Source: Purpureocillium takamizusanense
Taxonomy: Eukaryota > Ascomycota > Sordariomycetes > Hypocreales > Ophiocordycipitaceae
Assembly: GCF_022605165.1 (NCBI RefSeq)
Contig: NC_063079.1
Coordinates: forward strand, 382,001 to 446,000
Direction: 5' to 3'
DNA length: 64,000 nt
The translations under genes and the position numbers were made by a program. The notes beneath the pieces were generated by a model. The model searched no databases and was not told the origin of the DNA. It saw only the letters and a program-made list of their open reading frames with translations. Below are positions 2,140 through 42,587 of this stretch, piece by piece (position 1 is the first letter of the stretch; every line of letters begins with the position of its first letter).

Positions 2140-4620
2140 ATGGCGGCCGAATCGTCGCACAACCCATACGCCCGATCTCCCAACCCATCCACAAGGTCAT
2201 ACGACTCCTCGTCCGTCTCTTCTGCTACGTCGCCGCGGCCACCATCTCGGTATCTAGGGGGGCTTCTGGGCACGAGCGCGCGGCCCAACGCCGCGCCGAG
2301 TCCCCAGCCCATTGGCATGCCGTCACTGCCTCCTGTCCACCAAGGCTTCCCCCCGTACGCGTCCATGTCCAGCTCGGTGCTCGGGCGCGAGTCTCTAGCC
2401 TCCACCGACTCGGTCATGAGCGGCCAGGGAGGTGGCCACGGCCACTTGCCAGGGACTCCGGGCAGCCAGGGCCAGAAGAGGGCATATCGTCAGCGTCGCA
2501 AGGACCCGAGCTGCGACGCGTGCCGAGAGAGAAAGGTCAAGTGCGACGCCACTGAGACTACCAGCTGCTCAGAATGTTCCAGCAGAAACGTCAAGTGTCA
2601 GTTTACCAAGGAGACGAACCGAAGGATGTCGTCGATAAAGCAGGTTCAGGACCTGGAGAAGCAGATCGAGAGGGTGAAGCGCGACAACTCCAACTTGCGC
2701 AGGTTGCTCGGTGAGAGAGAGGGTCCCATGGACATGGAAATGGAACCCGCAGATCGACCATTCACACAGCTACCCCCGGTAGGGTCCGAGCCGAAGCAGC
2801 GCAGGCGACATCCTCCCAACCCAGAGCTGGCGAGGGCGCGGGCAAGCGTTCGCAGCCTCTCCAAGGGCATTTGGAACCCACCAGCACAGTTTCGCCAACC
2901 TCCGCCAACGATGCTCGACTGTCCAACCCCGGAACTCCCGCCTCAACCCGTCGTGGACCGGCTTCTGCACTCGTATTGCAATTCTGCGCATACAATGTTT
3001 CCCATTGTCCATATGCCGACGTTCCAGGCCATGGTCGACGACTTGTACCGGTCGAATCCTCAGCGGGTCTCGTCTGCATGGATATCGCTCTTCTTTGCGG
3101 TCCTTGCGGCCGGTAGTCTCTTCAGCCCTGAACCACCCACCAGCACCACCTTCTACCGGCCAGCCGAGCTCTTGGAGTCTGCCCGAAAAGTCATGGATCC
3201 CTGGAACAACCACCACACGCTCAACAACGCGCGGGCTTTAGTGCTCATCTCTCTATGCCTTGGCGAGATGAATTTGAAATCCGCCGCTTGGAACTGGCTT
3301 GGGAATGCCGTCCGCGTTGGGCAGGATCTCGGACTCTACTCTGAGTCCGGGTCCTGGCCCGTAATTGAGGGCGAGATGCGGCGGCGAACCTGGTGGTCCA
3401 TTTACATCCTCGATAGGACAATGGCCACGGAGATGGGGCACCCTTTTCTGATCGACGATACGGACTGCGATGTGTCTCTTCCGGCTGCCGTGGACGATCA
3501 GTATCTTCGTGAGGACGGAATGCGCGTCCCGAACGGGGCGGAACCGCTGACACATTCCCTTTTGGCCATTATTCATGTCGTGCGGTCGTACTCGTCCATG
3601 ATCAGATCGATGGATGCCCTGGGACTCTCCGCCGGCCAGCTGGGCATGTTTGACGGGCATTTCAAGAAGTGCCTGAGCACTTTCCCTCCAGCATGCGATC
3701 CTAACAACACCGTGGCATTGGCACCGCACTTTCTGGCCCCGCTGGCTTACCTATTCCACGCGAGACTTCTCGTCCATCGACACAACTTGTCGCCAAGCTG
3801 CTCGCCCGAAGTTCGCTTTGCCGCCATCGAGAACTGCACGCACGTCGCCCTCGAGACAGCATCGCTCATCAGCCGAACCAAGTCCCCCGCGGACGGTGCG
3901 ACGGCTCTGCTCGCAACCCACATCTTCCGCTCGACACTGTTCCTGCTTCTGACCGGCTACCTCGACCACGCGACCACGCTCATCAGGGCCCTCGCGGCCA
4001 TCGACGCCAGACGAGACATCACCCTCTCGTGCGGACGATACCTGTCCTTTTTCATATCCACCTTGGTCGCCAAACGGGCTGAACACGCCAGCTATCTTCC
4101 ACGAAGGCCCTCGGTTGACCACGCGGCACTCCTGACCTCTTTGACCCGTGACGAAGAGCTTCTGGCATACGTATCGGCCGATCAACAGGCCTCGCCGCAG
4201 AGGTCGTGGCTATGGACCGTCCAGGACAACGAGCCGCCCCCGGCCAAGTCGAGCACCGCGTCCGGCGGCGCCAGCGAGAATGGGCTCTTCAGCTCAGAGC
4301 TCCGCACCGGCCTGACGGAAGAAGAGCGCAGGGAATGGGGCGGCTGGGCGCGCCTCGAGGCGGCTGCTCGAGGGCTGGCCGCCGCCAGCTCTACCACCAC
4401 TACTACCGCTACTACCACTGCTACTGCCCCGTGGGCGCCTCTGCCCCCGCCGCAGGTCAAGAGCGAGTCTCCCGTGGCGGCCGTCGAGATCCAGCGCCTC
4501 TCGGACGCGCCGCGTTTCGCGTCCGACGCCAGGGGCCCGCCGCCTTCGAGCAGCAGCCCGACGTCCAACCCCGTCGTTAAGAGGGGCGCCGAACGCATCA
4601 GCATCGCCAACATAATATGA
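2140..4620 (+). CDS. Zn2Cys6 transcription factor with fungal_trans domain
   Basis: Predicted nuclear DNA-binding regulator of 826 residues in one exon. After a Ser/Pro-rich N-terminus, a Zn2Cys6 cluster has its cysteines at 125, 128, 135, 143, 146 and 153 (spacing C-x2-C-x6-C-x7-C-x2-C-x6-C), with a basic run before it and a coiled-coil linker at about 160-190 (EKQIERVKRDNSNLRRLLGE), the usual dimerisation element. The fungal-specific middle homology domain spans about 270-520, including the typical EMRRRTWWSIYILDRTMA segment. The C-terminus from about 690 is low complexity, with a run of Thr/Ala. The start ATG at 2140 has a favourable context (gccATGG). Target genes cannot be read from sequence; the architecture resembles broadly conserved ascomycete regulators of the xylanolytic-activator type, but I do not assign an orthologue. 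Confidence 0.93.
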   Translation: MAAESSHNPYARSPNPSTRSYDSSSVSSATSPRPPSRYLGGLLGTSARPNAAPSPQPIGMPSLPPVHQGFPPYASMSSSVLGRESLASTDSVMSGQGGGHGHLPGTPGSQGQKRAYRQRRKDPSCDACRERKVKCDATETTSCSECSSRNVKCQFTKETNRRMSSIKQVQDLEKQIERVKRDNSNLRRLLGEREGPMDMEMEPADRPFTQLPPVGSEPKQRRRHPPNPELARARASVRSLSKGIWNPPAQFRQPPPTMLDCPTPELPPQPVVDRLLHSYCNSAHTMFPIVHMPTFQAMVDDLYRSNPQRVSSAWISLFFAVLAAGSLFSPEPPTSTTFYRPAELLESARKVMDPWNNHHTLNNARALVLISLCLGEMNLKSAAWNWLGNAVRVGQDLGLYSESGSWPVIEGEMRRRTWWSIYILDRTMATEMGHPFLIDDTDCDVSLPAAVDDQYLREDGMRVPNGAEPLTHSLLAIIHVVRSYSSMIRSMDALGLSAGQLGMFDGHFKKCLSTFPPACDPNNTVALAPHFLAPLAYLFHARLLVHRHNLSPSCSPEVRFAAIENCTHVALETASLISRTKSPADGATALLATHIFRSTLFLLLTGYLDHATTLIRALAAIDARRDITLSCGRYLSFFISTLVAKRAEHASYLPRRPSVDHAALLTSLTRDEELLAYVSADQQASPQRSWLWTVQDNEPPPAKSSTASGGASENGLFSSELRTGLTEEERREWGGWARLEAAARGLAAASSTTTTTATTTATAPWAPLPPPQVKSESPVAAVEIQRLSDAPRFASDARGPPPSSSSPTSNPVVKRGAERISIANII

Positions 4621-5277
4621 GCGAGAGAAGTCAGTCCTTTTTTCCTGGCTGCCGTACCAGGGTTCGGGACACCCCGCCCCCCTTTTCTCTCGCAAATACG
4701 TTTCGTTCACCCATGGTCTTTTCCCTTTTTTACCTTTTGTCATTCTGGATGGGGCATACCAGAGCTTGGAGATACCACGGATCAGGATCGGAGTGGCCGT
4801 TTTGCTCTTCGTTTCCTTTTGTTTCTTCTTCTTATCCTCCTCTCCTTTTCCCACGCGCCTCCTCCTACTTGCTATCATGAAAGCCTGCGCCGCCTACATG
4901 CACGCACACCTGGACTCGGACGCCCGGGTGGTACCATGGTGCGTGTGCAAGGGGCTTGGTTCACGGCCAGCCATGTCTTCTTGTGCGACTCGCAAACTCC
5001 GCCCTCCCCCGCCTGCATGCATACACGCATGCCCGGGTCGCCACGGAACGGGCTTTTGCTTTGAATTTTGCTGCCGCTTTCATAATTATGATGTATCGAG
5101 TCACGTCTTGAAGCATAGAGCCGCATCCCAAATTTCAATGAGTAATGCCCATTCTTCGCCCACCACACATCTCTGAAAATGGGGCTCTCGTTGCCTGCTG
5201 AATATGTCCGGCGTGATCTTGTGGCCCTATTAACTAGTTTCGTGCATCCTCTTCCGCATCCTGTCTGAGCCCCGTCG
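4621..5277. other. convergent intergenic region
   Basis: This 657-base stretch lies between the 3' end of the + strand regulator and the 3' end of the - strand SPO22/ZIP4 gene. It is pyrimidine-rich just after the first gene. I see no coding frame in it. Confidence 0.6.
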
Positions 5278-8200
5278 TCACACTGGATTCGGGCGATGGT
5301 CTTCGAGCCGCAACTTGGCAAACCTGTCCTGCAAAGTAGCGGCCAGCGCGCCCGTGTCGTCGGCATACTCCGCCAGATCCATAGCCTTGAGCGCCCATCG
5401 ATGACAACTGGCTTCGTCGCCGCGTGCGAAATGATCGATAGCGTGGTTGAAGGTCGAGGCGACGAGCCATTCCAGCTCCAGCGCGGGAAAAGGCGAGCGC
5501 ATCTAACCGCAATATAAGCAATCACATCGTGCAGGTCGATCACAACGTCCCAGCAAGCCCACACGCACGCACGCACCTGGGCACCTTCGCGAGCAAGCTG
5601 CAGCGCCTGATTCAGCAGCTGCAAAGCGAGCTCGTCATCTGTCGGCAAGACGGCCTGGAAGATGCAACGCAAGTACTTGGCTAGCTTGGCGCTGTCAAAG
5701 TTTTCGAGCTCGAAGATCTCGTTGACAATGAGCCGCATGGTCGAGTATAGGACTATACACGGGGCTTGGTGTGAGTATCCCAATGCCAAGCCGCTCGTGT
5801 GACAGACTGTCTGTGACCGCGCGCATACCTCTGCCAGGGACATTGCCTCGTAACAGGCAATCCCCCATCGCCTTGTAGGCTACTTCATCCTTGCACACCT
5901 TTGCCTTTCTGATGATGGTGTTTAGGTCGGTCCATGCCTTCAGTGCCACGGCGCTCTCAAAGTCAAACACGGACAGCGTTGTCCACTTGGCGAGCAAGTC
6001 TGCTGCGACGCCCTTGCCTTGAGGACCGACATCCCGTTGGGACAAGGCATCAAAGCCGGCAACGTGGTGTCTTGCTGCGAGATACTCTTGCAGCTGCTGG
6101 TCCACTTTGTCTTCAGCTCGCGCGAGAGCGACCGAAGCCGCAGCGATTACGAAATGACAGCGCATGCCCATCAGCGAGAGTTCCGCAATGTCTGTCAAGG
6201 GCATGTCTTCTGGATAGCAGCCAATGTAAGTTACACAGGCGGCAAAGATGCGGACTATGCACTGCGGCTCCCACTTGTCGCACTCGGTCGCACCAATGTT
6301 GTACGAGTTCTTCCGAAACCAGTGGAGCTCAGGTATCGTGAAGATCTTCTTTCCTTGGTCGTCTTTCGGGTGTTGTCTCGCATGCTCGGCAGCTGATGAT
6401 ATGAGTAGTGTGGTAACTCGAGCCGCGGGTAGGCATACCTTTTTCAAAGACATCACAAAGGTCTCCGGCAAAATCGTCTGTGGGGCCCTCATCGTCAGCG
6501 GTATTGTCCTCCTCGATTGTCCGTATGAGACGGACAGTGCAACGCAAAATGGCTGGGTAGTTGCTTGACAACTTCGTCCCGTAGGCCCAACTTTGGGCGA
6601 CAGTCTTAAGCGCTGCCAAGGTGCAGATTTTGTCTCCAACTTGCTGTGCCTCCCGGACGCAGGCATAGATGATGTCTCGGACTCTGTCACTGTCTGAGCT
6701 TCGGCCAAGGTGCTCGAGGCATTGGCACCCCAGCTCATGGTCCCAACTGAGAAGCGCAACCTTGAACATGAGGTACCTCGTTAACGGCTCATTCCTCTGT
6801 CCGTCCGTCATACTTTGGAACGCGGCTCTGGCTCTCCCTGGGTCGTTTAATCGAATGGCACACTGGATCCGTCTCCGGCCAAATTTGCCCTGGCTGGATT
6901 CGCCAGAGCTGTTGAAAACTGGATGCAGCGCGACCGCACACCACGCGTCCGCCGCCGTAAACCTCTCCTTGGAACAAGACGACTCCATTTTCTTCCATAG
7001 AAGCTGCATTAAATGTTAGCTGGATAATATCTTTGGCGCTGTCACCTTACAGCTTGCGCCGCTCCTGTGGGGTCGAGGCTCAGGGGCCCTGAAAGGGCAT
7101 CATGTACGAGGTCCAAGTAATTCCCAAGTTCATCGAGAGAGTCCGTGGATGTGGGCGCCGTCGTCGCCATCTGCACTCGCCTCACGACGACCTTGTTGAT
7201 CCATTCCGCCTTCCCGCTCTGCGCAATATGCTGCCTCGTCAGTTCATCCAAGAGCCTCCCGGCCAAACGCGAACTCTTCTCGTGAAGATTCCTGATATGG
7301 TGAAGCAAAAGTTCCACCGTTTCATTCATGAAGTCGAAGCACTTTATCATCCGAAGAAGTATACTCGCGTAGGCCTCGACATCGAAGACCTCGCCTGGGG
7401 CATGCTGGAGGATTTCGAGCCGCCAGGCAAGGACCACGGGCCTGTCTCCAATCTCAGACTCGACGTAGGCGAGGAGATCGCTTGCTTCTTGGAGAGAGTC
7501 GGTTGATCCAATGCCAAGAAGGATCTGAACTCTGCCTTGGAAGACTGCCAGGCGCAGTTCCAGGCCATGCATTGAGAGCTTCTCTAAGTCCTGCGATTGC
7601 AGAATGTCATGCGCTCGTTTAAACCACTTCAGGGCCAAACTGAAGTTGTTTTTGGTGCCCAGGGCGCTGGCAATCTGGTATATCGTATTTGACATGGTTT
7701 CGGCCGATGAGACGTCGAGACTGGGCAAGAGAGGCTCCATCTTGGAGTACATGTGTTCGGTGACGTCGAGGCAGTCATCTTTCCACGACTTGCCAGCCAG
7801 TCGTCAGCAGATGCGCGTTTTTTTGGGTAGTGAAGCGCGTACCAATGTCATTCTCATCGTAAAGTATTCCGCCTCGAGTTTTGTTGCGACGGCCCCAGTG
7901 CCACTAGGGCCTCCCGTCCTGGTGTCATCGGCCTTCATACGGTCCACGTATTCGGCTGCTTTCTGCAAGGCCAACCGTGCCGAGTCCAGGTCCTCATCGG
8001 CAATGCATATTCTTCCTAGGGTTAGAGCCAACTTGAGGAGGTACGCCGCCTCTGAGCCGGCCTCGGGCTGCTTTATCCATCTTGCAGCCGCTCGGCGTCC
8101 TGTCTCCAATATGAGAAAGCTGAATAGCCTTACCCGCAGAACCAATTTGATCCGCGGATTCGTCGGCGACAAGGTATCCGACAGGTCTCGCCTGATTCGG

Positions 8201-34938: not shown

Positions 34939-37900
34939 CTAGCTCTCTATAAAACCCCTAATGGTTTCCTTTATCCACGGCGCCCTCCGCTTGGGGTCAA
35001 ACAAGGTCCAATAATTAATCCACCAGTATCCCGTGGTACTACCCTTACCCCCGAGCTCCTTGAACATCCGCCACATGGAGTCGTATCGCCGGAGACGCCA
35101 CCACTCCTGCTCGCCGAGGTAACCCCTCGCGTAGTCGAGAACGACGGCTGCAATGCCCGCCGTAATGACTGCGGCGCATGACGTGCCGCTCATGAGTTTG
35201 CGGTTGTCGGGCATCTTACGCTTCGAGCTCTCTGGAAACGGTGGCCAGGCCGAGCGGACGCACTCCCCAAGGGCCATGACACGCATGTTGTCCTGGGGGC
35301 TCGGTGTGAAGAGCGAGGGGTTGCCGTAGCCATCAGCCGCGTGGACACAGAACACGTCAGTCCGAGATGCCGGCCACGCGACTCCGTCGGGACGGTTCTT
35401 GCCGTCGTTCGAGGCCGCCGCGAACATAAGCACCTTCTTGGATGCCGCGTAGTCAATTGCTTCAGAGACCGTGCCGTTTTCCTCTCCGAAGCCGAAGGAC
35501 ATGACGACAATGTCGACCTGCCACGTATCCACGGCGTATCGGAGAGCCTAGATGAAGTGGTAATTGGGTTGGGTTATCTGAGCTCGACTCAAAAGCGCCG
35601 TTATGGTGGCACACTTACCTTGGCAATGCTTTCTGCTGACTCGACGATATGCGGCTTCTTCTTAAAGACTCTCGCGACGCAAATGACGGCATTCTCCGCA
35701 ATCTCGCGGAGGAGGACGGCGAGGTGCGTCCCGTGGCCGTCTTCATCATTCCATTGTGTGTTGGCCCTCTCCGGGTCAACAAAACTGCGATACAGCACCC
35801 TTGCATCGAAGCCGTACTGGGCTTTTTGGGTGCCTGACAGCTCGATGCCGCTGTCCAAGATGGCGATCTTGACCCTTTGTGCATCACAGAGCGTGGAGTT
35901 GCGGAGCTCGTTCCGTATGCGGCTGGTGGCATCTTTGTGATATTCGAGCCACCTCTCCGCCATGGATACTCTGGTCAACTCCACACGTTAGTAGCCTCGT
36001 CACTCTCCGTATGCAGACTGATGGTCTTCTTCTGAATAATGGAACGAGGCTGGGGAGTTGATGGGCATGACTCACTTGACTGGATCGACTCGTGTTTCGC
36101 CGTCCGTGTCCCGACCGTCTGCAAGAAGACAAATCTCGCGTCTTTTTCCAATCGTAATTTCTACCCTCTCTGCATAGTAACTTTCAGATATTTTACTGTG
36201 TTGACTAGGAGTGAGGAACACCATACCCTCGAGCTCGGCAAGAGACAAGTCGACGGCGGCAGCCGACGACCGCCGTCGGGCAGTGGTCCCCCGTTTACAT
36301 GTATGCTGGCCCGTCGACTTGTTGCTGCTTTCCATGGCCTTCTCTGACATGAGAAACTTGCCAAGTTCTTCGAGACGGACCTTGTATCCGTCCCTGAGCT
36401 CCGACGCCAAAGGCTGAATGATGCATGACAATATATACTGTCGGATCGGGCCCTCGTGCGCGAGACTTTGGCTTGGGAAGTTGGATGGCGGTTCCAGTTT
36501 CAGACAGGATCGAGTGGCTTTATACAAGGCGGGCGATATGCGTTTAGACCGGTCTCGCTCACTCCGTGCCTCACACTCTTCCAGCCTTTTCAAAGCATGC
36601 AGGCCGTCGTAGTTGAACGCCTTCCACTGCTCCTTCTCCTGTGACCTGTTGAATTTGTCACCCGTGGCGATCTCGAGAAAGATGATTCCGAGAGCCAGGA
36701 CGGCAGGGTGTGGGTGGTATTGCATGTGGGGCCTTGGAGACTTCTGTTGTTGTGCCTGTTGGAGTTCGACTGATAGGTATGGGAAGGTTAGCACTGGCGA
36801 CGACACCGGCGACTGACTCGAGCCGTTGGCGCGGCAGACAAAGTAGACGTTCATACTACTCCACGTCGAGTGAAACCAGGAGCCCGGATACAGAAACAGC
36901 ATGGAGTTGGCGAGAATATAGCACAGAGTTAGCTTCTCCCGAGGCGTGTATTTCGCGACATCCGATATGGCGGCACCGTCCCCCAGAAGTTGGTCGAGGC
37001 TCTCCATGACCGTATAGCTGTCAGCGACACCGTCGAGCAAATTGGGCGTGAGGTGCCATAGCGAGTTGTACTCGGCCACGAAGTCGACTTGGAACCCGTC
37101 GCTGTCGAATAGCCACTGGCAGATGTCGTCACTGACCAAGTGCCGGTCGGGTCTGGCCACTGACTGGGCCCTGAGCTTGACAGTCAGCAAGAGGCACTAA
37201 CTTACATGACACCAGATAATGACAAGGACTTGTAGAGGGGACTTAATCTTACGTTTGTCTCTTGACCTCGACATTAGTTACCTTCCACTCGATGATGTCC
37301 CTGCAAACAGGGAGGAGGACCTCGAACTTGGCAGGGCAATAGCTCTGCGCCGGTGCTTCACTTGCTGTCACCTTGGGCGCCAGCTGGCGATATTGTATCA
37401 GGCTGAGCCTCGCCTCTCGCTTCCCAGTCAGCCCGGCTGCCTGTTGGTGCTGAGGACAGCGACAATTCCAGTGCCGCTCCAGAAGAGTGTAAAGACGGTT
37501 GGCCAGCTCCTTCATCCCATGGCTGGGATGTTGCGAGAGGTTGAACTCTTCGACATCGGCGGTGGAGGTATCTCTGCAGTACACGTCCAAAAGGTGCTTT
37601 CCGGCAAGTCTGATGCGGCGGACAAACGTTTGGCGCTCCGCCCTGGACTGCCTCTCGCGCTTGTGGAATAGGGACACCTTGCGGCCCACGAGGGTCAGGT
37701 ATTCATCGCGCACCTCGCCGGGCTGAGAGGGCAATTCGAGGCACTCGTCGAAACCCCCGAGGTCATTCGACCTCAGGGACTTGGACAGGTCCTTTAGTCG
37801 TGGGAACCTGCCCTCCTCGTCTTGTTCCCCAGCCGAGGTCGATGCGGTGAAGTAGAAGAGGCTAGGGCCCCAACCCTTGGGCAGCCTGGTCTCGAGAGCC

Positions 37901-38109
37901 TCCAGGAGGCCCATGAGGACGTCGTCCCTAACGCTGGGAGCCCATTCTCCGCGAGACACGAACAGTGCCTGCCCTATGCTGATAATGTCTGAGTAGCAGT
38001 CCCGGGCGTCGTCGGCCAGGCTCTGGTCCGAAATCTCGCGCTCCTCGAATTCCTTGGCCAGAGCCCCAAAGGCCGGAATGACCTGGCTGAGAAGCACTAA
38101 CTGCCACAT
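34939..38109 (-). CDS. DUF7580-like plus subtilisin (peptidase S8) multidomain protease
   Basis: Four exons, 38109-37253, 37170-36076, 35970-35619 and 35547-34939, give 970 residues with no signal peptide, so the protease is probably cytosolic. Residues 1 to about 285 are helical. Residues 285-560 match the DUF7580 pattern found in fungal NLR-like and related proteins (LTLCYILANSMLFLYPGSW, PHPAVLALGIIFLEIATGD), a possible degenerate kinase-like fold. A linker leads to the S8 domain at about 680-900, with the full triad Asp 690 (ILDSG), His 730 (GHGTH), Ser 891 (MSGTSCAA) and oxyanion Asn 815 (AASND). The architecture recalls cytoplasmic fungal S8 proteases of incompatibility systems such as HET-Q2 of Podospora. 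It lies about 3.6 kb from a gasdermin-like gene (41742-42587), which makes a protease-substrate pair plausible. The domain calls are firm for S8 and moderate for DUF7580; the role is inference. Confidence 0.88.
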
Positions 38110-38588
38110 TGCTGTACATCAGCTACGCACAGCGACGGAGATGAAAGGTAGAGTCGGATAGAAAGAGACCATTAGGCGATGAGAGTAGATGGGTTTGCAA
38201 ACTTGGTTGAACGAGGTCTGGTCTTTGGTCTCCAGCCGTAAGAAGGGAGCGGGGGTGATCGACGTGCGAACTGAGTCTTAGCAGGCCGGGTTCAGTTTCT
38301 GCACTTTTCCTGCATGCAGATGGAGAAGCTGTTGAATATTTCCATATATCACGCAACGCCCGCTAAACCCCCTGTCACTTTGTCGCGGGTAACGCCCGGA
38401 ATCTCACTTGTCCCGCGAGACAGCCCTAATTCGTGGAGGCTGCAGCTTGTTACTGATTTAACGCTCATCTCCCCCGCCCGCCTGCATCATTCCACATGAA
38501 GCTACGTTTCCCTGGCTTTGGATTTCAGCAACAATTTCATTGCGAACTCTTGCTCTGTCTGTTTCCCTAGGTACGAGGCTGCGCCAGT
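38110..38588. other. divergent intergenic region
   Basis: This 479-base spacer separates the start of the - strand protease gene from the start of the + strand decayed gene, so it could be a shared promoter. No coding frame or repeat stands out. Confidence 0.55.
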
Positions 38589-39547
38589 ATGGCGGACTTG
38601 GCGGAGACTGAGTCGGATCTTCAGAAGCAGTCTGGCAGCCTAACGGAGATCGAGTTGGCACAACCCGAGACGGATCCTCAAGAGACCGCCAGCCTCAAGC
38701 ATATCGCCGAATGCTGCGAGCGACGTCTGTACAAGCTCTTGCAGGACGAGGAGGACCAGGAGGACATTGTCAAGGCAAGACATGGGCACTGGACGTCTCG
38801 CCAGTATGCCGAGTTCAACCTGTGGTGCGCCAAAGTCGGCATCCAAGGCGAGGGCCTTCGGTCAATCGACGTTCGGCTTAAAGACGTGCCCGATATCTGT
38901 AAACTTCTCAGACGACTGCTTCAGTCGCTGGAGCGGGACCTTAATGGCTAGCATTGCCCCTTTCCGCCGTTCCTGTTTCTCTACTCGAGCCTCATGGAGG
39001 CTAACGGAGCCGTCGACCCTGACAAGAGCTGGAACAACCATCTGAGTCATGTGAGCAAATAATTGGTACCGACGACGACTACAACGATGATGACGATGAT
39101 AATGATGATGCCGAGTCGGACGCTTCGCTGCTCTCTTTCGAGGCTCTATCCTCTGCCGAGCACTCCCAGGCGGGTAGTGCTCCTGATACTCCAGCACTGT
39201 CATCGAGGAAACGGAGAATGGCGCTACAAGCCTACATCGAAGACACCATCGACCGACTGCATGGACATGCACTTCGAATTGGAGACGCCGGAGCTAATCG
39301 CCGGCGTAGATGAATAGAACTCTATCGACAGAAGGAAGGCCTCAAAGGCGCTTACGATGGCTTCAAGGCGCTTGCGCTCCACGAAGTCAAGCTGCATTTC
39401 AAGAATGCATCCGAGCCCTTCCTCGAGCGATTGGCCGAGTCTTTTTCTAGGTGGAGAATTCGACTCGAGTACCTAAAGGAGCACCAGACGAAGCGAACCG
39501 TCTACACGTTCGACCCGGAGCGAGCTGCTGCTCCAGCGCTCGTCTAA
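38589..39547 (+). pseudogene. decayed fungal gene of the HeLo-like/C2H2 type
   Basis: The first 120 codons (38589-38951) look like the conserved N-terminal domain of a large fungal family often annotated as C2H2 or oxidoreductase-like proteins (CCERRLYKLLQ, YAEFNLWCAKVGI, SIDVRLKDVPDI, LLRRLLQSLERDL). This frame stops at a TAG (38949-38951). The homology then continues in another frame: an acidic Asp-run region from about 39085, then the family's second block (KLHFKNASEPFLERLAESFS, KEHQTKRTVYTFDPE) to a stop at 39545-39547, interrupted by an in-frame TGA at 39311-39313. No GT..AG pair cleanly removes both defects, and the long C-terminal zinc-finger part is missing. A truncated, multiply broken copy is the simplest reading; a sequencing error could explain one break but not the truncation. 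Confidence 0.65.
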
Positions 39548-39761
39548 TTGAGCGACCGAGAGCTGGCCATCGGTGGGCCGATTATTTCCCGGACCTTCCT
39601 CGATACGATCCCTCCCCCGTGCAGAACGACTACTATTTAAACGACGAAAAACTCCAACTATTCGTTGTGCGAGCGCAGAGAAAAATTCCAGATTTGTTTT
39701 CCGCCTCTTCTAAAGAAGGTTCGTGTCCTAGTGCGTCCTCTCAGGCCACCGCTGCTCTAAC

Positions 39762-40774
39762 ATGGAGATCATCCGCTTAGCCCAGTCGGAGACGCTGCCA
39801 GCACAGAATGAGACGGGAGATGTTAGCGTAGTCACGAATGAAGTAGACGACAGGTACGCGACAAGCATCCAAGACCAAGAAGTTTCCTGGAATAGGTCCA
39901 AGTCACAGCCTGCTGACGCACGTTACACTAGACAACAACCCGGCGAGCTCCAACGTCCATGGGCCTCGTCGGATAACTGTGGTAAAGTGCTGCCGCCACC
40001 AGGTCAAGTCTCGAAAGGGGGAAGACTGAAAAGAATAGCTCTATACAAACTGGTGGTTTTAGGGCATCCCGGCTCGGGCAAAACCGCCATGGTAACCCAG
40101 GTGATGGCATTCGCTCGCTCCCTGACAGAACAAAAGTCTGCTAATCCGAAATAACACAGTTTTGCTTAAATCATTTTGTAGAGACTTACGACCCCACGAT
40201 TGAAGATTCCTATCGCAAACAAGTCGTTGTTGACGGCCAGCCGTGCATGATTGAGGTCCTTGACACGGCCGGGCACGAAGAGTATACCGCCCTTAGAGAT
40301 CAATGGATTCGCGACGCGGAAGGGTTCATCATCGAATATTCCATCAGCAGCCGGCGGGCCTTCAAGGAAGTGCGAAGGTTCCATACGCAGGTAATGCGGG
40401 TCAAGGGCATGCAGAGTGCAATCAGCAGCATCAGCCGATCTGAGGGCCTGCCCGAAGACTTGCCACCGCCGGTTGTACTGGTCGGGAACAAGTGCGACAA
40501 GATCACCGAACGCGAGGTGTCCACGAAAGAGGGGTATGATCTAGCAAGGGAGATGGAATGCGAGTTTGTCAAATGTTCTGCAAAGAACAGCATCAACGAT
40601 GAGAAGACATTCTACGATGTCGTTCGGGCATTGCGCCAGCAGCAGCGGGTTGCGACTCCGCGAAGTTGGTGGTTGACGCGCCCGGGAGAAAAGCCGGAAT
40701 CGCCCCCCACGACGGTGTTTGGAGGTTTGGTAGACAGGGTCAAGGGGGCCGCGAGGAGGGTGTTCAAGGATTGA
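39762..40774 (+). CDS. divergent Ras-like small GTPase with N-terminal extension and no CAAX box
   Basis: Two exons (39762-40100 and 40160-40774) give 317 residues. The intron is placed so that FCLNHFVETYDPTIED follows the P-loop, as in Ras proteins. Residues 1-92 are an unrelated polar extension. The G domain has the P-loop GHPGSGKT (101-108), an intact effector loop YDPTIEDSYRKQ with Thr 126, DTAGHEE (148-154), NKCD (223-226) and SAK (253-255). The positions equal to Ras Gly12 and Gln61 are Pro 103 and His 152. The C-terminus ends RVFKD, with no prenylation cysteine, so classical membrane anchoring is absent; an amphipathic basic tail (DRVKGAARRVFKD) could substitute. It lies between the S8 protease and the gasdermin-like gene. 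The Ras family call is firm; the role is unknown. Confidence 0.87.
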
Positions 40775-41741
40775 GTCGTGAGATTGAGGTAGTCGCGCTC
40801 AACCAGACTCATATCAGATGGTGACCGTCAGCTGCCGGAGCATGAAGCGGCGTTTCATAATCCCCGTTTTTTGTCCGCCTTCAAAGAAAGTGAGACAGAT
40901 AGAACAGCTGCGGCCGCCACCGAACACCACGAGACGGTCTGTTGCTGCTACTTCGTCCTACTGCTCTTTCAACAGTATCCGGCGGCGTAGTCGCCGAAAG
41001 AGAGACGTACGGCCAGCCGATATGGCGAACTAACAGGACCTTGCCCCCCCCCCCAAAACATCCGGTCAACCCTCAAAGTGCCGGGGGGGGGGCTCTCGGG
41101 GGCGCGCTACCGTAAATCGAGAGGGGGTGACTTGTTACGATAGGCAGGTCATCGTTTCCGTCACGATCTGATGCCTCTATCTTATAGAAGTCATACCGGA
41201 GGCTCTCAGTAGTATGACAGCCAAGGAGCCAGGTATAGCACCCTCCATCGGAAGTGGGTTCCTGCATGTGTATATCCCCGCCATTCCTGACACGGTTCGA
41301 AGTCGCTCCTCATTAAAGACTCTTTGACATGCCGTCTCGACCCATTCCGGAGGACAGTGTAAAGCAAGCCCAACACTTCGACCATGTAGCCCGGTATGTA
41401 TGCCCTACGTACCACCAACTCCAATGTCCGAAGGGCGGCAAGAGGTGTAGAAATGGCAATTCCCTTTTTTTGGCACCGCAAACGTCAAAAATTAGACCAC
41501 TTAGGATGTCACAGGAGCTCCTGTGGATTTGCCGGACTTCGAGGCGGGGAAGCGGTATTTTAATACGTCAGCTGCCTTGGTGCGGCTGGAACTCCTGCCT
41601 TCAATCAGCGTCCCCTCGGTCACAAGTGTGTTTCGAGAGCTCTACAACCCTGCCCCAAAGTCTTCTGCGCTCTTTCTTCGGGCGACTATAGTGGGACGCT
41701 TTGTAACTGTCAGGCATCCAAGACAAAGACAGAAATCCACA
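40775..41741. other. spacer before the gasdermin-like gene
   Basis: About 1 kb with no supported gene. It contains an 11-base C run (41044-41054) and a 10-base G run (41083-41092), able to form a GC hairpin. The frame of the next gene stays open upstream to 41523, but this part looks non-coding. Confidence 0.5.
41044..41092. repeat. poly-C/poly-G inverted pair
   Basis: An 11-base C run and a 10-base G run lie 28 bases apart in the spacer between the Ras-like and gasdermin-like genes. On a single strand they would form a ten-pair GC stem. The exact run lengths may not be reliable in assembled sequence. Confidence 0.8.
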
Positions 41742-42587
41742 ATGGGGAAGCTCTACTACTTCCAAACTCCCACCTTCGACATCAACCCCGAGAGCGAGGC
41801 GGCGCCCAAGCTGGGGAGCATCTTCGCGACGCTTGAGACGCTCACGGCGCCGCTTAACCAATTCGAGCACGTGAGGCCACCCACGAGCCTCGTCAACGAG
41901 AGCTCCAGCGCGGACTTTGAAGAGACGGCTGGCAGCAGCCTTAGAGTCACCGTGACGTACGGCGCTGGGCGAGGGTCGGGGGACCCCATCTACGCCTTTG
42001 CGAGCGATAAGAAGAACGTGTACAGCTGCAAGCTGCTCGAGACGGTCGAGTTCTCGCCCACGGCTGAGTTCGTAACCGAGTGCATACGCTCCTCGCAGCA
42101 GGTGCAGCGTTTTCTAGAAAGCGCCTTCGTGGGCCGCAAGCGCGTCTACATGGTGACGGGCCTCAAGATCGCCGCGGGCTTCTCCACATCATCGACCGGG
42201 GAGACGCAACACAACCCCAAGCAGAAAATCAACGTCGGCGCCACCCCCACAGGCGTGCCTACATTGCTGGGCGGGCCGGAGCTCGACATCGCGATGTCGC
42301 CGGGGCGGACCTTGGCTCACGGCTTGACGGCCAACAAGATCGTCGTCGCCTACCGCGTCATCCGAGTCAAGGTGAAGTGGGACGGCGAGGCCCAGTACAA
42401 GTGCATGTCGGGCGGGAAGTATAGGACAGACAGCAGCGACGAGGATAGTGATGATGACGACAAGTCCGGCGGTAAGAAGGACCAGTGGGACCTAGAGCCA
42501 CTTGACGAGGGGGACATTGCTAGGGAGTTTCCGGACGCGGTGAAGATAGATGTAGAGGAGAGCACAAATGTTGAGGCGAACGTTTGA
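41742..42587 (+). CDS. gasdermin-like pore-forming domain protein (HET-Q1-like candidate)
   Basis: Single exon, 281 residues from the ATG at 41742, close to the size of fungal gasdermins (Podospora HET-Q1 and Neurospora RCD-1 are about 260-280). The N-terminus (LYYFQTPTFDINPESEAAPKL) and the beta-strand pattern fit this group as I know it: VYSCKLLETVEFSPTAEFV, then RVYMVTGLKIAAG (124-136), a Gly/Pro-rich hairpin region, and VVAYRVIRVKVKW (201-213). The last two correspond to the two conserved strands of gasdermin N-terminal domains (VYxVT and AYRV). The last 50 residues, from about 229, are acidic and probably form the removable inhibitory tail. There is no signal peptide or membrane helix. 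In this family an active fragment permeabilises membranes once the tail is cut off. The family call is pattern recognition and should be tested by profile or structure. Confidence 0.6.
   Translation: MGKLYYFQTPTFDINPESEAAPKLGSIFATLETLTAPLNQFEHVRPPTSLVNESSSADFEETAGSSLRVTVTYGAGRGSGDPIYAFASDKKNVYSCKLLETVEFSPTAEFVTECIRSSQQVQRFLESAFVGRKRVYMVTGLKIAAGFSTSSTGETQHNPKQKINVGATPTGVPTLLGGPELDIAMSPGRTLAHGLTANKIVVAYRVIRVKVKWDGEAQYKCMSGGKYRTDSSDEDSDDDDKSGGKKDQWDLEPLDEGDIAREFPDAVKIDVEESTNVEANV

Follow-up and report, generated by a model that had tools for sequence, protein, structure and literature searches.

The window analysed here, a stretch of 64,000 nucleotides of Purpureocillium takamizusanense, contains a subtilisin (S8) protease gene and a gasdermin-like gene in opposite directions, and the interval between them is occupied by one broken and one Ras-like gene. 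The spacing of about 3.6 kb given in the initial annotation corresponds to a distance of 3,632 bases from start codon to start codon. The features of the locus are:

34939..38109, minus strand: gene for a DUF7580-subtilisin (S8) protease of 970 aa, in four exons and without internal stop
37253..38109, minus strand: protease exon 1, covering the N-terminal region and the beginning of DUF7580
36076..37170, minus strand: protease exon 2, DUF7580, weakly kinase-like
35619..35970, minus strand: protease exon 3, S8 with Asp and His motifs
34939..35547, minus strand: protease exon 4, S8 with Asn and Ser motifs
38589..38951, plus strand: N-terminal domain of a third gene, still open, 120 aa, 51-70% identity to 11/11 homologues found
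39023..39538, plus strand: middle region of the third gene, in another frame and with an in-frame stop, matched by 11/11 homologues
39556..39690, plus strand: short segment of the third gene, in a third frame, located 3′ of the zinc-finger-like region in homologues, matched by 5/11
39762..40774, plus strand: Ras-like ORFs (39762-40154 and 40247-40774), which may be an unrelated gene or a C-terminal module belonging to the third gene
41742..42587, plus strand: fungal gasdermin-like gene, 281 aa, single exon, intact, one uninterrupted ORF
42411..42422, plus strand: GGKY motif, residues 224-227, with Tyr227 as the proposed P1 residue of an activating cut
42423..42584, plus strand: acidic C-terminal tail, 54 aa, 6.0 kDa, pI 4.05, with the conserved end motif WDLEPLDE..FPD

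The product of 41742-42587 (+) is, by homology to the pore-forming domain of RCD-1 of Neurospora crassa, a fungal gasdermin, and it is collinear with its homologues from residue 1 in the alignment. A PDB search with a 26-sequence gasdermin profile returned RCD-1-1 (8jyx and 8jyz, E 3.4e-10 and 4.3e-10) as the best relatives, followed by RCD-1-2 (E 5.1e-6), and up to E 0.1 all entries were gasdermins; a lack of gasdermin similarity, envisaged at the outset as a possible outcome, was not found. The window protein as a single sequence reached RCD-1 at E 0.011, and exosome chains, which are unrelated, at 0.14 and 0.4. All six entries listed in the structural comparison were gasdermins, the AlphaFold model being poor (mean pLDDT 48.6), and PADLOC gave no match for the window gasdermin.

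The acidic tail noted initially is borne out by a pI of 4.05 after residue 227, against 8.7 for the core. The sequence GG[K/R/I] followed by an aromatic residue is present in 70 of 73 gasdermin sequences, query counted, and two of the remaining three stop short of the position. The figure of 49% Asp/Glu was obtained from 69 sequences using the last GG[K/R], a motif that in a few of them sits within the linker. Activation of HET-Q1 of Podospora anserina involves removal of a tail of about 5 kDa, according to passages in PMC12881547 and PMC10989679, and the 6.0 kDa tail found here is close to that size. HET-Q1 also resembles the window protein in length (278 against 281 aa) and in having a short C-terminal tail that starts near an aromatic residue. 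The tail of the window gasdermin would be inhibitory and lost by proteolysis. Unlike this, RCD-1 is controlled by the meeting of two allelic variants and reportedly not by proteolysis, as stated in part of PMC12881547.

The description of the second gene as an S8 protease with a DUF7580-like module and a complete Asp/His/Asn/Ser set agrees with the Pfam matches and with the four motifs AILDSG, GHGTH, AASND and GTSCA. DUF7580 was matched on exon 2 at E 1e-27 and Peptidase_S8 on exon 4 at E 5.8e-12 and on exon 3 at E 0.0011, the latter below the curated cut-off. The 970-aa splice model outscored an alternative of 962 aa with another intron-1 boundary against all four homologues compared, and it was the 962-aa model, with its less good boundary, that served as query in the protease-homologue search. 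One protease homologue, P0074, gave a subtilase match in PADLOC.

In the genome of P. takamizusanense, an S8 match is present within 10 kb at 5/6 gasdermin-like places and a DUF7580 match within 10 kb at 4/6, while the sixth place, on C7, has neither nearby. The chance of such proximity to S8 is p 7e-9 for 5/5 places and about 4e-8 (hand-worked) when the sixth, lone place is included, with a per-locus chance of 0.023 and a null of random positions that ignores possible crowding in variable regions. For this statistic 53 S8 matches had been grouped manually as 43 loci, at a stage when the sixth place was not yet known. No gasdermin was found beside the orphan DUF7580-S8 gene at C12:513-516 kb. 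Outside this genome, gasdermin and protease homologues of the same species occur on equal-sized contigs, taken as one contig, in 14 other fungi (14/39 protease homologues). In seven of these fungi the locus tags are one or two apart, and examples of tag pairs are BHE90_001332/001333, CDV31_015803/015804, NM208_g303/g304 and VPNG_03033/03034. The same 14 fungi, which list both genes, speak against a housekeeping protease without a gasdermin neighbour, the other outcome considered at the start.

Because of the homology to RCD-1, the recurrence at other loci and the co-listing in 14 other fungi, the gasdermin-protease pairing is supported, and on sequence grounds the window pair is taken as a member of the known fGSDM/Q2L kind (Clave et al. 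2022, through reviews), in which an S8 protease lies less than 10 kb from a gasdermin. Fusion of Q2L proteases to kinase-like domains is also mentioned in a section of PMC12881547. The suggestion of a HET-Q1/HET-Q2-like unit holds in so far as an S8 protease is the reported gasdermin activator there and the proposed one here; the protease is not of the HET-Q2 type that belongs to the het-Q allorecognition locus proper, that protein being given as 388 aa in a passage of PMC10989679 against 970 aa with DUF7580 here. In addition, het-Q1 and het-Q2 are described in part of PMC12881547 as idiomorphs at one locus, whereas both window genes are present in one haploid genome and, unlike at het-Q, have the remnant of a third gene between them.

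The broken gene at 38589-39690, first regarded as filler, is by comparison with its homologues a decayed copy of a third, recurring gene family. It and the protease gene are arranged head to head, with start codons 479 bp apart. The short segment at 39556..39690 was matched by homologues at E 0.003 to 9e-6, and a segment of about 280-330 aa is missing before 39556. As judged from the homologues, the family has an N-terminal domain, a zinc-finger-like region and a variable C-terminal module. No Pfam name was obtained over cut-off for the N-terminal domain, the sub-threshold matches to Ub-RnfH and GAP1-C being judged chance, and the zinc-finger reading comes from Cys/His spacing and the source's name for P0118, with Pfam C2H2 matches below cut-off. 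NPHP3_N, a NACHT-like NTPase, was above cut-off in 4/11 third-protein homologues, and a NACHT-like C-terminal module is found in Trichoderma and Colletotrichum. Homologue P0120 gave a sub-threshold ankyrin match and weak PADLOC matches. Within the P. takamizusanense genome the C-terminal modules differ, one copy (L045) having a kinase and a sub-threshold TPR match and another (L044) being without Pfam match.

Six third-gene copies were identified in the genome by a match to the N-terminal domain (window, C12:516.7 kb, C5:1963.6 kb, C9, C2 and C5:154.7 kb). Each of the six has a DUF7580 gene within 10 kb. In this count the window copy and those at C12:516.7 kb and C5:1963.6 kb were noticed in stretches already examined for gasdermin or DUF7580, and only the C9, C2 and C5:154.7 kb copies (3/6) were found blind, in searches whose query came from another place. 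The head-to-head partner is the DUF7580 gene in four cases and the gasdermin in two, and the DUF7580 gene without S8 on C2 also has a third-gene neighbour. No third-gene match was found at the C4 locus, the only gasdermin locus at which an ankyrin-repeat ORF lies upstream of the S8 exons. In other fungi the third gene is linked to the pair or to one of its genes in 3/8 named species: T. virens (TrVFT333_000793 gasdermin, TrVFT333_000795 DUF7580 with a short gene model, TrVFT333_000796 third protein), T. atroviride (TrAtP1_010097 and TrAtP1_010095) and Decorospora, where protease and third protein are both on a contig of 47,458 bases. In three Colletotrichum species the two proteins are listed with different-sized contigs, and for the remaining 2/8 species the homologue lists held no same-species partner.

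These observations are best read as a split pathway of sensor, protease and gasdermin with an inflammasome-like layout, the sensor gene of which is wrecked in the window, and we consider this the probable reading, if by no means a secure one. The locus would be a regulated cell-death module in which the newly made gasdermin is an inactive monomer restrained by its short acidic tail. Once activated, the DUF7580-subtilisin would cut after Tyr227, the aromatic position that is nearly invariant at the border of the tail, and the core thus released would form pores and cause cell death. In the ancestral form a biological trigger may have acted through a separate third protein, with its conserved N-terminal domain, zinc-finger-like region and changeable C-terminal module, NACHT-like in several fungi, and signalling would have run from there to the protease. 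With the third gene wrecked and the other two genes intact, control may have passed elsewhere, or the pair may be silent and poised, much like the state that has been suggested for allorecognition loci arising when other parts of a pathway decay. As both intact genes are present in one haploid genome, the gasdermin cannot be under constant attack by the protease, and an armed pair consequently requires a protease that is off by default.

An ordinary two-gene fGSDM/Q2L cluster, in which the DUF7580-S8 protein itself senses via its kinase-like region and the third gene is a role-less neighbour riding along in a fast-changing defence region, appears unlikely, yet it is the alternative with most in its favour. 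According to passages in reviews, there are two-gene clusters, about 80% of fGSDMs have a protease nearby, and fusions of proteases to 'kinase-like' domains occur; these passages place sensor and protease in one protein and mention two- or three-gene clusters in general terms. Furthermore, the gasdermin and protease frames are open despite the wrecked third gene, and the C2 gene without S8 suggests an association of the third gene with DUF7580 and not with gasdermin as such. What distinguishes the present loci from published Q2L/fGSDM clusters is the presence of a separate third gene family alongside the DUF7580-S8 type, at DUF7580 loci and head to head in 6/6 copies, with linkage in three other species. 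Hitch-hiking also predicts copies elsewhere, and none away from DUF7580 loci was found in the genome searches, though single-sequence searches can miss divergent ones. The third gene is regarded only provisionally as a new component, the published two-gene clusters being known here through reviews.

A role of the third protein as a restraint on the protease or as a second executioner, and not as an activating sensor, is quite improbable. The variable C-terminal modules (kinase in L045, none by Pfam in L044, NACHT-like elsewhere) are compatible with such roles, and to call the copies with a kinase or unknown module sensors is a guess. A NACHT-like NTPase is, however, the usual core of fungal receptors (NLRs), and if an inhibitor of an active protease were lost next to an intact gasdermin, death would be expected. 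Very improbable indeed is a dead or housekeeping locus, a degrading remnant with protease and gasdermin unpartnered: in its favour are the broken third gene alongside and the absence, from the Ras-like copy, of the CAAX-like end seen in the C6 relative, but both main frames are open at full length with conserved catalytic motifs, and both homologues are on equal-sized contigs in 14 other species.

If the favoured split pathway is right, it resembles the mammalian inflammasome (NLR, caspase-1, gasdermin D) in having separate sensor, protease and gasdermin. It differs in using a subtilisin and not a caspase, in its clustered genes and in the short acidic tail where gasdermin D has a large C-terminal domain. 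No similarity was detectable between the third-protein and protease profiles, and hence, at the profile level, no homotypic adaptor domain common to both proteins was found. We tentatively extend the reading, with more doubt than conviction, to a three-part inflammasome-like death pathway in fungi, made up of a separate receptor, a receptor-activated DUF7580-subtilisin and a gasdermin. The receptor would combine a new N-terminal signalling domain and a zinc-finger-like region with a NACHT or other module, and the window would represent loss of the sensor, leaving a poised protease-gasdermin pair as a step on a proposed route that leads from immune pathway to allorecognition locus. The separate-sensor design of animal inflammasomes would then also exist in fungi, with subtilisin replacing caspase. 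The recurring third gene with its receptor-like modules is a concrete candidate for control that is open to direct genetic test, and its decayed window copy may serve as a natural experiment on trigger loss in such pathways.

The Ras-like ORFs, which we take to be of RSR1 type, were rejected as a cluster member, with 0/10 genome matches at another gasdermin locus. They are a stray copy of RSR1 type or else the wrecked third gene's C-terminal module. Only one close relative is present in the genome, at C6:1092634 with 61% identity, and it lies away from the gasdermin loci.

The adjacency of protease and gasdermin, from which a candidate HET-Q-type pair had been proposed in the initial annotation, was confirmed, and both partner genes are open. 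The protease gene has four exons encoding 970 amino acids:

38109-37253, minus strand, exon
37170-36076, minus strand, exon
35970-35619, minus strand, exon
35547-34939, minus strand, exon

This splice model outscores an alternative model against all four homologues compared. The protein contains DUF7580, which also gave a sub-threshold protein-kinase match (E 0.0065), and after it a subtilisin (S8) domain with the motifs AILDSG, GHGTH, AASND and GTSCA. Among the 8000 candidates sharing most words, 39 homologues of the protease were found, with both DUF7580 and S8 listed in 36 and DUF7580 only in three.

Genome searches with gasdermin queries gave six gasdermin-like places, five of which have an S8 match within 10 kb (contigs C12, C5 (twice), C4 and C9), and at four of these five DUF7580 is also within 10 kb. 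Relative to random positions, p was 7e-9 for S8 and 2e-9 for DUF7580, computed on the five places with the sixth, on C7, left out. The sixth is a gasdermin-like frame at 4554-5318 (+) of the extracted stretch L054 (C7:1175 kb), and no S8 or DUF7580 match was found near it. Of the 39 protease homologues in other fungi, 14 are listed on a contig equal in length to that of a gasdermin homologue of the same species. Protease and gasdermin carry consecutive locus tags in Fusarium euwallaceae, F. ambrosium, F. decemcellulare and Cytospora leucostoma; in Trichoderma virens, T. cf. simile and Lentithecium (JGI numbers) the tags differ by two. The clustering in the own genome and the equal-length contigs support reading the two genes as a pair, and the pair is of the known fungal gasdermin-protease kind; reviews (PMC10197012 and PMC10989679) put the share of fungal gasdermin genes with a protease gene no more than 10 kb away at about 80% (about 60% S8).

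The gene between the two, previously described as broken, is indeed broken, and by homologue alignment it is also what remains of a third component. Its N-terminal part, 38589-38951, is open and has 11 relatives at E <=1.2e-18 in a protein search that included fungal sequences. Laid on the window, these homologues give three collinear blocks, each in a different frame:

38667-38942, plus strand, block 1 (11 of 11 homologues, 51-70% identity)
39023-39538, plus strand, block 2 (11 of 11 homologues), interrupted by an in-frame stop
39556-39690, plus strand, block 3 (5 of 11 homologues, E 0.003 to 9e-6)

The homologues have about 280-330 further residues at this point, the zinc-finger-like region among them, to which nothing corresponds in the few bases that separate blocks 2 and 3 in the window. 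Because the blocks are collinear in three frames, with an in-frame stop and a missing segment, the alignment identifies them as one gene, ruined. It stands head to head with the DUF7580-S8 protease gene, 479 bp separating the start codons. The Ras-like copy that follows (39762-40774, plus strand), which we take to be RSR1-type, has DTAGHEEY where a relative on C6 has DTAGQEEY, a GHPGSGKT P-loop and an N-terminal extension of about 90 amino acids, and is without a CAAX-like end; it occupies the place of the third gene's NACHT-like module in other fungi.

In T. virens the third protein TrVFT333_000796 adjoins the DUF7580 protein _000795, with gasdermin _000793 near, and in T. atroviride TrAtP1_010095 is two tags from gasdermin TrAtP1_010097. 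Protease and third protein share one 47,458-base contig in Decorospora. Linkage is thereby seen in three of the eight named species; among the other five, the contigs listed for protease and third protein differ in length in three Colletotrichum species, and the homologue lists contain no named partner for the third protein of F. kuroshium and T. gamsii. NPHP3_N, a NACHT-like NTPase, lies behind the zinc-finger-like region in 4 of the 11 matches (homologues P0115, P0119, P0120 and P0121), as counted from a Pfam scan of seven and precomputed Pfam assignments for all 11. The four shortest matches (373-415 aa), which may be truncated gene models, all break off near one point, the first zinc-finger-like segment. 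No description of this family was found in the portions consulted of PMC12881547, PMC10197012, PMC10989679 and PMC9815663, nor among the literature matches listed, although the tables of Clave et al. 2022 could contain the third gene; the word DUF7580 was found in no paper of the literature searched.

Searches with the N-terminal parts gave six third-family copies in this genome:

C12:420.6 kb, copy in the window
C5:154.7 kb, copy with the gasdermin between it and the DUF7580 match
C5:1963.6 kb, copy
C9:619.5 kb, copy
C12:516.7 kb, copy
C2:4950.1 kb, copy

Each of the six has one of the eight DUF7580 matches within 10 kb (p 8e-15 counting all six, although only three, on C9, on C2 and at C5:154.7 kb, were found blind), and all face away, head to head, from a DUF7580 gene (four) or a gasdermin (two). 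The same searches found no third-family copy at the DUF7580 matches on C7 and C1; single-sequence searches may overlook divergent copies elsewhere in the genome. A search using the C2 copy's zinc-finger-like region recovered five of the six loci (C2 included) and one weak C6 match; the window copy was missed since the region is absent there. Our splice models on the extracted stretches gave the following third-family proteins:

L044, 982 aa
L045, 3419-7572, minus strand, 1,296 aa, head to head with a gasdermin; C-terminal protein kinase domain, preceded by a sub-threshold TPR match
L048, at least 874 aa, extending beyond the stretch

The differing C-terminal modules may mean different roles. 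L048 (C12:509500-519499), at a distance of about 95 kb from the locus in the window, carries an orphan set in which a DUF7580-S8 protease and a third-family gene stand head to head; no gasdermin was found near this locus (C12:513-519 kb). On L050 (C2:4945000-4954000) a third-family gene and the gene of a DUF7580 protein that has no protease domain stand head to head, without a gasdermin. The DUF7580/third-gene pairing thus exists outside gasdermin clusters, and since C2 pairs them where both S8 and gasdermin are missing, the tie of the third family to DUF7580 is a broader one. The C9 copy contains an AT-rich stretch (L049 about 1150-1450, C9:620.2-620.5 kb), possibly an insertion disrupting the gene.

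Two open gasdermin-protease partners and a wrecked third gene, among whose relatives are receptor-like proteins, are established; a three-gene module in which the sensor-like gene is ruined is the better description of the locus. In the pathway we propose, the third protein would sense a trigger and activate the DUF7580-subtilisin, which would then release the gasdermin pore domain; as a single haploid genome contains both partner genes, the default state of the protease must be off. Every gasdermin locus with a DUF7580-S8 protease, four in all, has the third gene or its remains, whereas at the C4 gasdermin locus (L046, C4:1001500-1009500), the only one where an ankyrin-repeat frame directly precedes the S8 exons (the two counted as one gene), there is no DUF7580 and the N-terminal searches found no third gene. 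This contrast fits a separate sensor. Against the proposed pathway count the profile of the third protein, which showed no similarity to the protease, the C2 pairing that lacks S8 and gasdermin, the C12:513-519 kb set at which no gasdermin was found, the differing C-terminal modules, and the divergent third-family copies that single-sequence searches may overlook. The C4 locus matches the published fungal architecture of gasdermin and ankyrin-S8 without DUF7580 or third gene. According to PMC10197012 some fungal clusters look like 'contracted' pathways, the protease being part of the receptor, unlike in mammals; by comparison, the DUF7580-S8 loci resemble an uncontracted version. That review also proposes that allorecognition pairs can originate when other parts of a pathway are rearranged and pseudogenized, and the window locus, in the one strain analysed, resembles an intermediate towards such a pair.

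Across the gasdermins, an aromatic residue follows GG[K/R/I] in 70 of 73 sequences, query included (69 Tyr, 1 Phe); two of the three exceptions end before that point and the homologue P0028 differs. Behind the aromatic residue comes an acid-rich linker of variable length, about half Asp/Glu over its first 25 residues, and a conserved end motif closes the tail. The window gasdermin tail has 54 residues (6.0 kDa), against the 40-residue piece of about 5 kDa which HET-Q2 removes from HET-Q1 after Phe238, according to PMC12881547 and PMC10989679. Because the GG[K/R/I]-aromatic motif is conserved and the tail is comparable to that piece, we infer Tyr227 as the P1 residue of the predicted cut.
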